From the NCBI RefSeq assembly GCF_016889805.1, contig NZ_CP069535.1:2976001-3040000 (forward strand): a DNA stretch of 64,000 nt. Reading direction: 5' to 3'. The DNA is from Rhodanobacter sp. FDAARGOS 1247. Its GTDB lineage: Bacteria > Pseudomonadota > Gammaproteobacteria > Xanthomonadales > Rhodanobacteraceae. A program made the translations under genes and the position numbers. Positions 42,076 through 46,536 of the stretch are shown here, piece after piece. The notes under the pieces were generated by a model. The model was not told where the DNA came from and did not search any database. It worked only from the letters and a program-made list of their open reading frames with translations. The first letter of the stretch is position 1; every line of letters starts with the position of its first letter.

Positions 42076-42558
42076 ATGGCCACGCCGAAACCGTTCCACC
42101 ATGCTGCCTTTCTGCGCGACCTGGAGCAATTCGTCGCCGGTGGAAGCTGCCCTGCCTCCTGTTCGCCCGAACTTGCCGCGATCCTGCGGACCCCGGGCGT
42201 CGATGCCCGGCCCTCACCGGCGGCCAGCCAGCTGGTTCGCCTGCTGCATGCACGCAAGGCCGTGCTGAAGGCAGCGTTCGACACCGGGCAGGTCGCCGAC
42301 GAATTGCGTCGCCACCAGAAGTTCGCCAGGCCCGGACAGCCGTCGCCGCATATCGTGCAATTGCGCCAGCAACAAGCCGCCGCACGACAGGCTTCCAGCC
42401 AGTCGCGACAACTGCTGATCCAGTCCGCCGCCGCCTTCGTGCGCGAGGCCGGCATCGTGCCGCCCGCGCGACTGGCCCTCGAGGTGTTCATCGACGGCTG
42501 GATGGAAGCCGGCTTGCCGAAAGAGCCGGGCACGCCAGAGGCGGGCACGCCCGGATAA
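42076..42558 (+). CDS. Hypothetical helical protein, 160 residues
   Basis: Not recognised. A soluble protein with predicted helices (HHAAFLRDLEQFVAGGSCPA; SQLVRLLHARKAVLKAAFDT; VQLRQQQAAARQASSQSRQL) and a glutamine-rich centre. The only cysteines are two close together in SCPASC. Divergent from the V4R-like gene across a 218-base gap in which I see no other feature. Convergent with pepN, sharing the hairpin between them. Confidence 0.7.
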   Translation: MATPKPFHHAAFLRDLEQFVAGGSCPASCSPELAAILRTPGVDARPSPAASQLVRLLHARKAVLKAAFDTGQVADELRRHQKFARPGQPSPHIVQLRQQQAAARQASSQSRQLLIQSAAAFVREAGIVPPARLALEVFIDGWMEAGLPKEPGTPEAGTPG

Positions 42559-42593
42559 AAAAGCGCCGCCGGCACGATGCCGTGCCGGCGGCG
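42555..42593 (-). terminator. Terminator downstream of pepN
   Basis: A perfect 13-bp stem CGCCGCCGGCACG / CGTGCCGGCGGCG with loop ATGC. On the minus strand it is followed, after one C, by six T, so it ends pepN. It can also block read-through from the opposite gene. Confidence 0.87.
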
Positions 42594-42609
42594 GATACCT
42601 CGTTGCCGC

Positions 42610-45291
42610 TTAGCGCAGGATGCTGGCCGGGTCCTGCTTCGCCGTCAGCGCACTGCACAGCTGGATCGATTCGCCGGTCTGGGCCAGGCCACGACCGATG
42701 CCGGCAGCGTCCTTCTCGCGGGTCTTGAAGAACGCCTGCAGGCGATCGTACTCGGCGGTGGAGCAGCCACCACCGGCGGCCAGCGACGGCAGGCGACCGC
42801 CGGAGAAGCTGCCGGTGCGATCGAGGATCTGCTGGTAGTGAGCGGTGAACCAGTTCCACATCGCGTCACGCTGGGCCTGCGTATCGCGGCCACCGCGCAG
42901 CAGCATGGCCATCTCGCCGACCTTGACCGGCTTGGTCAGCGCGAAGTTGCGCACCTGCTCGGCCAGTGCCGGATCTTCCACGCTGGCCAGGCCACCGAGA
43001 ATGCCGTTGCGCAAGGCCGGGTCGCTGGTCTTCGGCAACTCGGCGATCAGCGCATCAACCGCGCTCTTGCCGTGTTCCTGCACCGCCACGCCCAGCGCAT
43101 CGCCGAGCAGGTCGGGATCGGCCGCGGCCAGGTTCAGGTGGCCATCCGCCGTCGGCTTCAACGCCGCATCACCCTGCTTGAGCAGGGCCGCACGCACTTC
43201 GGGCAACTTGAAATCGAACGCCAGCGAACTGGCCAGGCTGCTGCGCATCAGCGAATCGTCTTCCGGCTCGCCCGCCTTGCGCTGATAGCCGAGCTGCTCC
43301 AGTCGCGGCAGGTAGGCGGCCTTTGCCCATGCGGCCAGACGGGCGCGCTGGGCATCGGTGGTGGCGATGCGATGGTAGAGACCGCTGGCCGTGCCCAGTG
43401 GCACGGTGGCCACTTCGCGGATCTTCGAGCCGGTCAGCGGCTGCATGGCCGCCAGCACCTGGCCGGCATCCAGATCGCCACGGCGGAAGCTGGCGTTGAT
43501 CGCATCGGCGTAGGCCAGCTGCTCGGCGTCACTGAGCGTGCCGACCTGCTTGATCAGGCGGTCGAGCCCGTCCTTGTCGAGGCTGAAGCGGTAGTAGCCG
43601 CTGGCGTTCGCGTTCGGCATCACCCAGGTCGACTTGCTGGCGCCGGGCAGCTCCATCGAGCCGGTGGCCTGGTCGAGCATGTCGCAGGCGACCTTGCTGC
43701 CATCGACGGTGCCGTAGCGCACGCACACCGGCACGCCCCAGATGCGCTTGGCGTCGCCGCTGCTGCCCAGCGGCAGGTAGCGGCTCTGGTTCAGCTGCAG
43801 CACGGTCTTGCCATCCTTCTGTTCCAGCTTGGTGGCCACGTAGGGCACGCCGGACTGGTCGAGGAAGCTCTTGAACGCATGCTTGAACGCGTCGCCCTTG
43901 TCGGCCGCGGTGGCGATCGCCGAGACCAGGTCGTCGGCGGTGGCGTTGCCGAATTTCTGGCTCTGGATGTACGCCCGCATGCCCTTCTGGTAGGTCTTCT
44001 CGCCCACGTAGTTCTCGAACATGGCGATGACGCTGGCACCCTTCTGGTAGGTGATGCCGTCGAACGCGGTCATGATGTCGCCGTTGCCGGAGATCGGCTG
44101 ACGGATGCTGCGCGCGCTGACCAGGCTGTCGTTGCTCATCGCGCCCTGCGCGCCGCGCACGCGGTCGAGGTCGGCGCGGTATTCCGGATGCACCTGCATG
44201 GTGACTTTCTGCTGCATCCAGGTCGCGAACGCCTCGTTGAGCCAGATGTCGTTCCACCACGCGGTGGTCACCGTGTCGCCGGTCCACTGGTGCGCCAGCT
44301 CATGCGCGTTGACGTTGAACGAGCCCTGCACGTTGCGGGCCGGGGAATCCTTGTCCAGCAGCAGCAGCCAGTCGCGGAACGTCACCAGGCCCGGGTTCTC
44401 CATCGCGCCGGCTTCGAAATCCGGCGCCGCCAGCAGGTCGAGCTTGCCGAACGGATAGCCGAAGCCGTAGTAGTTCTCCAGCGCATGGATGATGCTCGGC
44501 GTTTCGCCCAGCACGTGTTCCATGCGATGGCCTTCACCCTTGGCGGCGATGCCGCGCAGCTTCAGCGGTTCGCTGCGGTAGGCGTCGGGCGAGATGTCCG
44601 GGCCGTCCACGATGTCCCACGGGCCGACCGCGAACGCGACCAGGTAGGTCGGCAGCGGCTGGGTCTGGGCGAAGGTCACGGTCTTCCAGCCCTTGCCGGC
44701 CGGCTGCTCCTTCACCTGCTTGGTATTGGCCACCACGTTCTCGTGGTCAGGCACGGTGATGCTGATGTCGAACGGGGTCTTGAAGCCGGGTTCATCGAAA
44801 CCGGGGAAGGCGAAACGCGCGCTGATCGGCTCCATCTGCGTCATCGCATACGGCTGGCCCTTGGCGGTGACCTTGTACAGGCCCTGCAGTTGCTGGTTGA
44901 GCGGCGCGCTGTACTCGAACTTCACGGTGAGGTCCTGCGGCTTCAGCGTGCTGCCGAAATCCACCCGCACCACGCCCGCCTTCGGGTCGACGTTGACGTA
45001 CTTGCCCGCGTGCGTCTTGCCGGCGGCGTCGGTGATCGTCACCTTCGACACCTTCAGTTCGGCGCCATCCAGCCACAGGTGGTCGGAGGCCTGGTTCAGC
45101 TTGACCTTGATCGTGGTGGTGCCGGAAAAGTCCTGCTGCGCCGGATCGACCTTGAACGCCAGCTGGTACGACTGCGGCACCGCCCAGCCCGGCAGGCGAC
45201 CCTGCGGCGCCTGGTCGGCGGTGGCGGCAAACGCGGCGCCACAACAAGTGGCGAGCGCGGTAAGCAGGAGCGGGCGGACGAGACGGCGCAT
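42610..45291 (-). CDS. M1-family zinc aminopeptidase, exported
   Basis: 893 residues. A signal peptide (LLLTALATCCGAAFA) implies a periplasmic enzyme. Family motifs: the exopeptidase sequence GAMEN (in DFEAGAMENPGLVTF, about residue 297) and the zinc site NAHELAHQWTGD with the distal glutamate in WLNEAFATWMQ. An ERAP1-like C-terminal helical domain fills the last 330 residues. It removes N-terminal residues from peptides. Length fits the eukaryote-like M1 group rather than E. coli PepN (870, cytosolic). Confidence 0.94.
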   Translation of the reverse strand: MRRLVRPLLLTALATCCGAAFAATADQAPQGRLPGWAVPQSYQLAFKVDPAQQDFSGTTTIKVKLNQASDHLWLDGAELKVSKVTITDAAGKTHAGKYVNVDPKAGVVRVDFGSTLKPQDLTVKFEYSAPLNQQLQGLYKVTAKGQPYAMTQMEPISARFAFPGFDEPGFKTPFDISITVPDHENVVANTKQVKEQPAGKGWKTVTFAQTQPLPTYLVAFAVGPWDIVDGPDISPDAYRSEPLKLRGIAAKGEGHRMEHVLGETPSIIHALENYYGFGYPFGKLDLLAAPDFEAGAMENPGLVTFRDWLLLLDKDSPARNVQGSFNVNAHELAHQWTGDTVTTAWWNDIWLNEAFATWMQQKVTMQVHPEYRADLDRVRGAQGAMSNDSLVSARSIRQPISGNGDIMTAFDGITYQKGASVIAMFENYVGEKTYQKGMRAYIQSQKFGNATADDLVSAIATAADKGDAFKHAFKSFLDQSGVPYVATKLEQKDGKTVLQLNQSRYLPLGSSGDAKRIWGVPVCVRYGTVDGSKVACDMLDQATGSMELPGASKSTWVMPNANASGYYRFSLDKDGLDRLIKQVGTLSDAEQLAYADAINASFRRGDLDAGQVLAAMQPLTGSKIREVATVPLGTASGLYHRIATTDAQRARLAAWAKAAYLPRLEQLGYQRKAGEPEDDSLMRSSLASSLAFDFKLPEVRAALLKQGDAALKPTADGHLNLAAADPDLLGDALGVAVQEHGKSAVDALIAELPKTSDPALRNGILGGLASVEDPALAEQVRNFALTKPVKVGEMAMLLRGGRDTQAQRDAMWNWFTAHYQQILDRTGSFSGGRLPSLAAGGGCSTAEYDRLQAFFKTREKDAAGIGRGLAQTGESIQLCSALTAKQDPASILR

Positions 45292-45391
45292 GGTGGTTTC
45301 CCTGGGTTGTGGAGAATCCCCAAGCTAGAGCCGCCATGACCTTCGACCCAGTGCCAGAAGGCATGGCCGGGCATCAGCCTGGCACGGGCCC

Positions 45392-45427
45392 AAAAAAAAC
45401 CGGCGATGAAGCGGACTTCATGGCCGG
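45392..45427 (-). terminator. Orphan minus-strand rho-independent terminator in the oxyR-pepN gap
   Basis: On the minus strand, CCGGCCATGAAG / CTTCATCGCCGG pairs over 12 positions with one C/C mismatch and loop TCCG, followed by eight T. No known gene reads into it from the right on this strand. Confidence 0.75.
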
Positions 45428-45498
45428 CCGGGGAAGCCCGCGCGCCTGCGGGGGAGAGGGAGGGGACTCCGACGCGCGGGTTGTCACGAGATCAATGG
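45392..45498 (-). ncRNA. Candidate OxyR-controlled small RNA, divergent from oxyR
   Basis: The minus strand between the oxyR operator and the orphan terminator holds a stem CCCGCGCG / CGCGCGGG (45,437-45,480) whose 28-base loop is C-rich (CCCCTCCCTCTCCCCC), then the terminator hairpin. A weak promoter (TTGGAG, 18 bases, TACGCT) lies next to the OxyR site and would give a start near 45,498 and an RNA of about 107 bases. E. coli OxyS has the same divergent arrangement and size. Homology to OxyS is not claimed. Confidence 0.4.
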
Positions 45499-45532
45499 CA
45501 GACAGCGTACCGAGCCTTCTTGCATTGCTCCA

Positions 45533-45569
45533 ATTGATTGTTACCATCTCGCCCATAGATTCTGGCTAT
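45533..45569. promoter_or_regulatory. Tandem OxyR-type operator upstream of oxyR
   Basis: ATAG-N7-CTAT at 45,555-45,569 is a perfect half site. Exactly 7 bases away, ATTG-N7-CCAT at 45,533-45,547 is a degenerate second one, giving the known OxyR tetranucleotide spacing. It lies 19 bases before the oxyR start and overlaps its likely promoter, as expected for autoregulation. Confidence 0.55.
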
Positions 45570-45588
45570 TGTCGTACCGGGATGAGCG

Positions 45589-46536
45589 ATGAATCTGCGC
45601 GACCTTCAATACCTGGTGGCCCTGGCCGAGCACCGTCATTTCGGGCGTGCCGCGAATGCCTGTTTCGTCAGCCAGCCCACCCTGTCCACCCAGATCAGGA
45701 AACTGGAGGACGAGCTGGGCGTGCCGCTGGTCGAGCGCACGCCGCGCAAGGTGTTGCTGACCGAGGTCGGCCGCGACATCGCGATGCGCGCGCGCAACGT
45801 GCTCAACGAGATCGAGCAGATCCGCGGCGTGGCCCGGCGCACGCTGGACCCGGAATCCGGCACGGTGCGGCTGGGCATCTTCCCCACGCTGGGGCCGTAC
45901 CTGCTGCCGCATGTGCTGCCGCTGGTGCGCAAGGCCTTCCCGCGACTGGAACTGCTGCTGGTCGAGGAGAAGACCGAGACCGTGCTGCGCCTGCTGCACG
46001 AGGGCAAGCTCGACGCCGGCATCCTCGCCCTGCCGCTGCACGAGGACAGCCTGCACCAGGAATTCCTGTTCGAGGAACCGTTCCTGCTGGCGGTGTCCGA
46101 AGCGCATCCGCTGGCGCACAAGCAGGGCCAGCTGAAGCTGGCCGACCTCACCCACCAGAACCTGCTGCTGCTGGAGGACGGCCACTGCCTGCGCGACCAG
46201 GCGCTGGAGGTCTGCCACATGGCCGGCGCGGGTGAACATTCCGGCTTCCGCGCCACCAGCCTGGAAACCCTGCGCCAGATGGTGGCGGCCAACGTGGGCA
46301 TCACCCTGCTGCCGGTGACCGCGGTGAAGCCGCCGGTGGCGCCGCTGGATAACCTGCACCTGATCGAGTTCCGGGGAACGCCGCCGAGCCGGCGCATCGC
46401 GATGGTCTGGCGCAAGAGCTCGGCGATGGACGCCTTCCTGAAGCGTCTCGCCGACGTGCTGCGCGAGCTGCCCGCCGACCTGCTGGACGCGCACACCGCG
46501 GCGACGCCGCCGGCGGCCAGGGTCTCCGCCGGCTGA
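45589..46536 (+). CDS. oxyR: Hydrogen-peroxide-sensing LysR-type regulator OxyR
   Basis: 315 residues. A LysR helix-turn-helix at residues 1-60 (MNLRDLQYLVALAEHRHFGR; ACFVSQPTLSTQIRKLEDEL) is followed by a sensor domain. Cys200 and Cys209 (GHCLRDQALEVC) correspond to the disulfide-forming pair Cys199/Cys208 of E. coli OxyR, and LAVSEAHPLA and ANVGITLLP also match. Oxidation by peroxide switches DNA binding and induces antioxidant genes. Its own upstream region carries a tandem OxyR-type site. No katG/ahpC lies in the window. Confidence 0.95.
   Translation: MNLRDLQYLVALAEHRHFGRAANACFVSQPTLSTQIRKLEDELGVPLVERTPRKVLLTEVGRDIAMRARNVLNEIEQIRGVARRTLDPESGTVRLGIFPTLGPYLLPHVLPLVRKAFPRLELLLVEEKTETVLRLLHEGKLDAGILALPLHEDSLHQEFLFEEPFLLAVSEAHPLAHKQGQLKLADLTHQNLLLLEDGHCLRDQALEVCHMAGAGEHSGFRATSLETLRQMVAANVGITLLPVTAVKPPVAPLDNLHLIEFRGTPPSRRIAMVWRKSSAMDAFLKRLADVLRELPADLLDAHTAATPPAARVSAG

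Follow-up and report, generated by a model that had tools for sequence, protein, structure and literature searches.

The gap between oxyR and a pepN-like gene of Rhodanobacter sp. FDAARGOS 1247 is likely to carry a gene for a peroxide-responsive, OxyR-controlled small RNA (sRNA) of about 106 nt, predicted to derive from an oxyR–ahpC–(hairpin, terminator)–ahpD locus and to bear a C-rich loop that most likely represses mRNAs with G-rich ribosome-binding sites. Comparison of sequences from related genomes shows the anatomy, conservation and covariation of the element, its common ancestry with sequences at both ends of ahpC, namely the promoter and the ahpC–ahpD gap, and the joint retention of promoter and RNA. 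From the same sequences, we infer that the element is transcribed, that OxyR controls it and that it acts by base pairing.

Anatomy and conservation of the element

The window, i.e. the whole stretch of 64,000 nucleotides analysed, contains the element on its minus strand, between the divergent oxyR gene and pepN (Table 1). A preliminary description of this gap had named a minus-strand terminator with a 12-position stem and eight T, into which no gene reads. Both statements hold: 11 of the 12 positions pair, with one C–C mismatch (arms 45427–45416 and 45411–45400, T-run 45399–45392), and the flanking genes start at 45589 (oxyR, plus strand) and 45291 (pepN, minus strand). The second stem that it had proposed is also present, and its eight claimed pairs grow to ten, including one G–U (arms 45480–45471 and 45446–45437), but its loop measures 24 nt and not the claimed 28. 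In the minimum free energy fold, four further inner pairs form within this stem-loop, which reduces the loop to the 10 nt UCCCCUCCCU. The 107-nt RNA from 45498 to 45392 folds at −43 kcal/mol, compared with −32.5 ± 3.3 kcal/mol in shuffled sequences (z −3.2), and one shuffle in 200 reaches an equally good fold.

Table 1. Predicted features of the oxyR–pepN gap and related loci (positions in the window unless a contig is given).
Feature	Position	Strand	Details and basis
Tandem OxyR-type operator made up of four half-sites separated by 7 nt each	45533..45569	+	ATAG-N7-CTAT-N7-ATGG-N7-CAAT; common to oxyR and the divergent minus-strand promoter
Predicted promoter of the RNA	45504..45532	-	-35 TGGAGC at 45532-45527, 17 nt, -10 TACGCT at 45509-45504
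Predicted small RNA, about 106 nt	45392..45497	-	Start predicted from the position of the -10, end from that of the T-run
Stem-loop 1, 10-bp stem with 24-nt C-rich loop (45470-45447), likely pairing site	45437..45480	-	Covariation and C-rich hairpin counts
Intrinsic terminator, 12-position stem, TCCG loop, T8	45392..45427	-	Sequence, fold, changes on both sides of pairs
oxyR, 315 aa, divergent	45589..46536	+	NCBIfam PRK11151.1 OxyR equivalog, 330.6 bits, cut-off 329
pepN-like aminopeptidase, next gene	42610..45291	-	Best NCBIfam match pepN TIGR02412, 277 bits, below cut-off of 591
ahpC–ahpF locus of the window genome (L031, L207)	G000:C1:2053132-2054224		

The tandem operator noted in the preliminary description differs at 2 of 16 specified bases from ATAG-N7-CTAT-N7-ATAG-N7-CTAT, which we take to be the consensus of an OxyR-type site, and no other site in the window comes within three mismatches of that consensus; 0.01 matches would be expected by chance. 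The promoter beside it is weak, as had been described: TGGAGC and TACGCT, 17 nt apart, each share three of six bases with the consensus hexamers. This weakness counts against an sRNA gene, as does a consensus scan of positions 44800–46200, which returned neither promoters nor terminators, presumably because the hexamers are poor and the terminator stem contains a mismatch.

Across 21 gaps of relatives that lack ahpC at this locus, mean identity is highest in the hairpin (0.88), followed by the operator and promoter (0.82), the spacer and terminator (0.79) and the pepN 5′ region (0.78); it is lower in the leader (0.61) and just past the terminator (0.57). Within the −10 element of these gaps, the first T (1.00), the A (0.95) and the final T (1.00) are nearly fixed, and the bases between them range from 0.62 to 0.71.

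Both helices covary across relatives, as the preliminary description had proposed to check. Alignment A1 comprises 27 of 30 loci, leaving out L004, which is nearly equal to L003, and L029 and L030, which the search pattern missed (nhmmer found the former and not the latter). Its 27 rows contain 11 pairs with changes on both sides, amounting to 35 double-changed cells compared with 11.8 in shuffles, none of 500 of which scored as high. The same holds within the 19 ahpC-less rows alone (alignment A2), with nine pairs and 26 double-changed cells compared with 9.8 in shuffles (0/500 as high). Two of these nine pairs lie in the C-rich hairpin, six of whose ten pairs are invariant in the 19 species, and seven are among the terminator's 12. 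The number of further pair types in the 19 rows showed no excess over shuffles (307/500).

Conservation of both stems and the terminator in relatives, on which the preliminary description had made its proposal depend, was found with covariance model R1, which matched in at least 36 of 45 Rhodanobacter genomes. These comprise 12 of the 15 genomes that have ahpC at the locus and 24 of the 30 that lack it. Because R1 had been trained on relatives and the window, these match by construction, and the counts obtained with R1 are lower bounds, as large searches filter more strictly. Among 200 genomes of the order it matched at least 19, comprising eight of the same genus, nine others of the family and two of other families, the last two being weak (E 2.3e-5 and 7.3e-4). 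The matches adjoin OxyR in 35 of 36 genus genomes (in G043 at oxyR locus L056); the exception is G011, a draft genome that gave no OxyR match and in which the position of the element relative to oxyR could therefore not be established. The single strong match per genome in the genus speaks against a repeat element; one genome, G032, has a second match at E 0.0055.

Two further observations concern the surroundings of pepN. The block TGCCTTCTGGCACTG upstream of it (45363–45349) shows 0.90–1.00 identity per base across the 21 ahpC-less gaps and, by eye, has near-copies in many loci of the family; it may be a promoter or operator. Just 3′ of the pepN stop, at 42516–42597 on the minus strand, lies a weak covariance-model match (E 0.029) that is probably due to chance.

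Relation to the ahpC transcription unit

A sequence search of 100 related genomes matched the stretch in 40, of which 36 are among the 45 congeneric genomes and four among the 55 from outside the genus, with the operator part alone matching in some. In part of these genomes the match is split, with about 600–700 bases between operator and hairpin. This insert is ahpC, and the terminator is followed by ahpD and then pepN. The relatives' AhpD scores above the NCBIfam AhpD cut-off (195.2 compared with 191.95), and their AhpC-like protein reaches 152 bits against TIGR03137, below the cut-off of 272; by its sequence it is an AhpC-type peroxiredoxin, not the form defined by that family. The window genome gave no match to a relative's AhpD in a search run without a positive control, and it contains no close AhpC, the best match being 40% identical and belonging to a separate ahpC that precedes ahpF elsewhere (Table 1).

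For the comparison of loci, 179 were reduced to 122 distinct ones, 121 of which enter the OxyR tree. They comprise 47 loci with ahpC (44 of them with ahpD), 51 without ahpC but with pepN downstream (within about 460 nt in 50 cases, at 2.6 kb in L148) and, outside these 51, 24 without ahpC in which pepN was not found. Loci from the rest of the family were hand-picked and cover 45 of the 155 OxyR-bearing genomes outside the genus and 22 of 25 genera; the named loci comprise the best 80 of 217.

The two ends of the element correspond to the two ends of the ahpC unit. The operator, the −35 and −10 hexamers and their 17-nt spacing are the same before the relatives' ahpC as before the stand-alone element, and TAnnnT at a spacer of 16–18 nt occurs in 46 of 47 ahpC-containing loci. 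Likewise, the hairpin and terminator of the ahpC–ahpD gaps are those of the stand-alone element, as seen in both A1 and R1. A C-rich hairpin was detected in 30 of 44 ahpC–ahpD gaps (none on the opposite strand; 2.5 expected in shuffles), including those of Luteibacter and Dokdonella, where alignment by eye had failed, and in 29 of 51 ahpC-less pepN loci (one on the opposite strand; 4.6 in shuffles). The detector, which requires a stem of at least seven pairs and a loop with CUCCC or similar, was written after examples had been seen, so that the contrast with the controls outweighs the raw counts. Terminators were called in 24 of the 44 ahpC–ahpD gaps.

The resemblance extends about 11 nt 5′ of the hairpin, where the leader of the stand-alone form is similar to the ahpC 3′ UTR. 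The comparison drew on 17 of 21 ahpC-less gaps and on 10 of the 11 ahpC-containing loci selected for it (L059 did not fit the pattern). Identity over 18 nt is 0.44 in register and 0.18–0.32 at other shifts; per position it is 0.39–0.80 at −1 to −9, 0.36–0.42 at −10 and −11, and mostly at background beyond. A gapped comparison of the leader gave no clear excess, with 19% of random ahpC 20-mers reaching the observed mean.

The element thus reads, from its sequence, as an internal deletion of an ahpC transcription unit that left promoter and 3′ UTR, and it would have arisen when loss of ahpC and ahpD joined the two. The opposite course, in which ahpC and ahpD were inserted around an older RNA, is disfavoured: the order ahpC–hairpin–ahpD recurs in genera as distant as Luteibacter, Dokdonella, Pinirhizobacter, Dyella and Rhodanobacter, which makes loss the simpler reading on an unrooted tree. 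The parallel with oxyR/oxyS that the preliminary description had drawn from the layout persists, with the element taking the form of a lost ahpC's 3′ UTR joined to that gene's OxyR-type promoter. Separately, a contig filed under Candidatus Eremiobacteraeota (L154) carries a Dyella-like oxyR–ahpC locus, probably through a binning error.

Retention and probable repeated origin after ahpC loss

In ahpC-less pepN loci, promoter and RNA are, judged by sequence motifs, retained or lost together. The promoter (TAnnnT, 16–18 nt) is present in 28 of 29 such loci with the hairpin and in 1 of 22 without it, and the 19-base upstream block separates the two classes (Mann–Whitney test, 2.4e-9, kinship uncorrected). 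The lone promoter-bearing locus without a detected hairpin, L051, holds an element that is degraded but still matched by R1 (E 1.4e-5). Phylogenetically independent contrasts are few, with three pairs on starred branches, on average 2.6 of them concordant (sign test, 0.25). Loci without the hairpin, L054 and L065 among them, retain by eye an ATAG-N7-CTAT half beside oxyR, and autoregulation of oxyR therefore does not explain why the promoter is retained only together with the RNA. Among the 24 loci in which pepN was not found, the hairpin was detected in seven (two on the opposite strand; 1.7 in shuffles) and the promoter in two of these seven and 1 of the 17 others; given the two of seven, several of these hairpins are probably due to chance.

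On the OxyR trees, which are unrooted single-gene trees with many open forks, the state of the element changes at least six times among the 51 loci, and the presence of ahpC changes at least 13 times across 97 loci, a figure that rises to 19 across 121 when unresolved loci are counted as lacking it. Strains C01 and B04 lack ahpC, yet have the longer stem of the ahpC-containing strains C03, S184 and C05, with which they group at weak support (86/56). The stand-alone form also occurs in Dyella subtropica, D. marensis, the D. ginsengisoli group and three further genomes. At least two independent losses of ahpC with retention of the element are likely from these sequence comparisons, though not proven. 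In the D. ginsengisoli group (L061, L083, L103 and L104), the ahpC-less locus shows, by eye, two C-rich hairpins before the terminator.

A change of peroxidase system would account for the dispensability of ahpC and ahpD in genomes that kept the RNA. Among the 45 Rhodanobacter genomes, 15 have the locus-type ahpC (ahpCD type), 27 have AhpF, none has both and three have neither, an exclusion that is marked when kinship is left uncorrected (Fisher test, 2.4e-9); on the tree, a test for replacement of ahpCD by ahpCF drew on only two independent pairs on starred branches, too few for significance (p 0.5). The exclusion suggests that the ahpCF operon took the place of ahpCD. By eye, an OxyR-like site lies upstream of the ahpCF operon, and the ahpC–ahpF gap (L031; L214–L218) of the window genome and 5 of 20 relatives contains a long hairpin with a C-rich loop of its own, of the CCCTCCCC type, the other 15 relatives having different hairpins there.

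Predicted function and relation to known RNAs

In the proposed mechanism, oxidised OxyR bound to the shared operator would activate the divergent promoter, and transcription would proceed for about 106 nt through the C-rich stem-loop and stop at the intrinsic terminator with its T8. The loop, which contains the anti-Shine–Dalgarno-like CCUCCC, would most likely pair with G-rich ribosome-binding sites and so repress translation under peroxide. The bases of UCCCCUCCCU are mostly unpaired in the predicted ensemble of the window RNA (at least 0.6 per base), some being lower in L003. The target pattern AGAGGGAGG-N2-12-ATG gave five matches in eight genomes compared with three for the reversed control; all five lie before different reading frames, none of which recurs.

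Other readings account for part of these data. The element could be a relict, a promoter and old terminator that linger after ahpCD loss, perhaps insulating pepN, with an RNA that has no function in trans. The terminator does derive from the ahpC 3′ end, and the C-rich hairpin went undetected in 22 of 51 ahpC-less loci and is thus dispensable in some lineages. Yet a pure insulator would require neither the hairpin nor a −10 element, and we consider a relict unlikely in view of the hairpin's identity across the 21 gaps (0.88, against 0.57 just past the terminator), the compensatory changes in ahpC-less species (two of the nine double-changed pairs in the hairpin and seven in the terminator) and the joint presence of promoter and hairpin in 28 of 29 loci and absence of both in 21 of 22, which relict status would not maintain. 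Less probable still is a purely cis-acting element of the ahpC mRNA that tunes ahpC relative to ahpD or stabilises the ahpC 3′ end, the stand-alone form being a by-product. Such a role would suit its position between the two genes and the terminators detected in 24 of 44 such gaps, but the element persists with its promoter where both genes are absent. The C-rich loop also occurs without a detected terminator in L076, L163, L165, L166, L175 and L180 (Luteibacter or grouped with it) and in L073 and L153 (Dokdonella or grouped with it), and hence seems not to serve termination alone; in L105, of the Luteibacter group, a terminator was detected. A cis role and an sRNA role may coexist.

We give very little weight to a leader attenuator of pepN, in which a transcript from the oxyR side would be conditionally terminated before that gene. 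The element does lie on the same strand, and some 100 nt separate its terminator from the start of pepN, but ahpD separates the two in ahpC-containing genomes and pepN has a conserved upstream block of its own. An OxyR-controlled sRNA of ahpC origin is our preferred reading.

The closest known parallel is OxyS of E. coli and other Enterobacterales, which we take to be Rfam family RF00035. OxyS is about 100–110 nt long and ends in a terminator hairpin. Krieger et al. are said to have argued in 2022 that it evolved from a peroxidase mRNA, replacing the ancestral peroxidase in Enterobacterales while staying in the OxyR regulon. Two articles cite Krieger et al., one of them where it names OxyS beside oxyR (PMC11975290). 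As judged from sequence features, the element resembles OxyS in being divergent from oxyR, with an OxyR tetramer-type site at its promoter, in its predicted length and terminator hairpin, and in its probable descent from a peroxidase (ahpC) mRNA, as indicated by the promoter and 3′ element shared with relatives. It differs in giving no covariance match to OxyS, in a body that stems from the 3′ UTR of an ahpC preceding ahpD, in the retention of ahpC by relatives and in its C-rich loop. A cmscan search against 4227 Rfam families found nothing at the element at gathering score, and one tRNA only in the whole window; relaxing the threshold to E ≤10 over 331 bases gave seven matches, all at E 0.5 or worse and none to OxyS, and 20 related loci gave no matches. 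Given the missing sequence match to OxyS and the ahpC-containing forms of the element within Rhodanobacteraceae, the most fitting view is that an RNA arose from a peroxidase mRNA separately in this family, in the same manner as OxyS.

Two further types of RNA are comparable. According to the excerpt available, sX13 of Xanthomonas, which always lies downstream of polA and has three stem-loops, uses C-rich apical loops to repress mRNAs that bear G-rich motifs close to their start codons (PMC3771888). The loop of the element is likewise C-rich and conserved and perhaps acts, by analogy, like those of sX13. As far as that excerpt allows comparison, the element differs in lying in the oxyR–pepN gap and not at polA, in having one C-rich loop plus a terminator and in matching no Rfam family. 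In ahpC-containing relatives, its position and shape would fit the sRNAs derived from 3′ UTRs in bacteria, as far as these are described in the excerpt of PMC7398697; the window's element differs from them in having no parent gene and being a predicted stand-alone transcription unit. Among the matches listed in a search of open-licence literature, none reported an OxyR-controlled sRNA in this order or an sRNA from ahpC.

Taken together, these comparisons lead us to favour, by a narrow margin of confidence, the view that an OxyS-like RNA arose for a second time, in an event separate from that in E. coli, through loss of ahpCD with retention of the ahpC promoter and an already functional 3′-UTR RNA. 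This would have occurred more than once in Rhodanobacteraceae, the candidate lineages being the main Rhodanobacter clade, C01/B04, Dyella subtropica/marensis and the Dyella ginsengisoli group, and it would represent a general route from 3′-UTR RNA to stand-alone stress sRNA. The origin of new bacterial sRNAs is an open question. Here, the states before, after and with loss of the element coexist in one genus and its family, and the proposed steps, in which the 3′-UTR element came first, gene loss second and the promoter was inherited, would be directly testable in soil bacteria, several of which are cultured.
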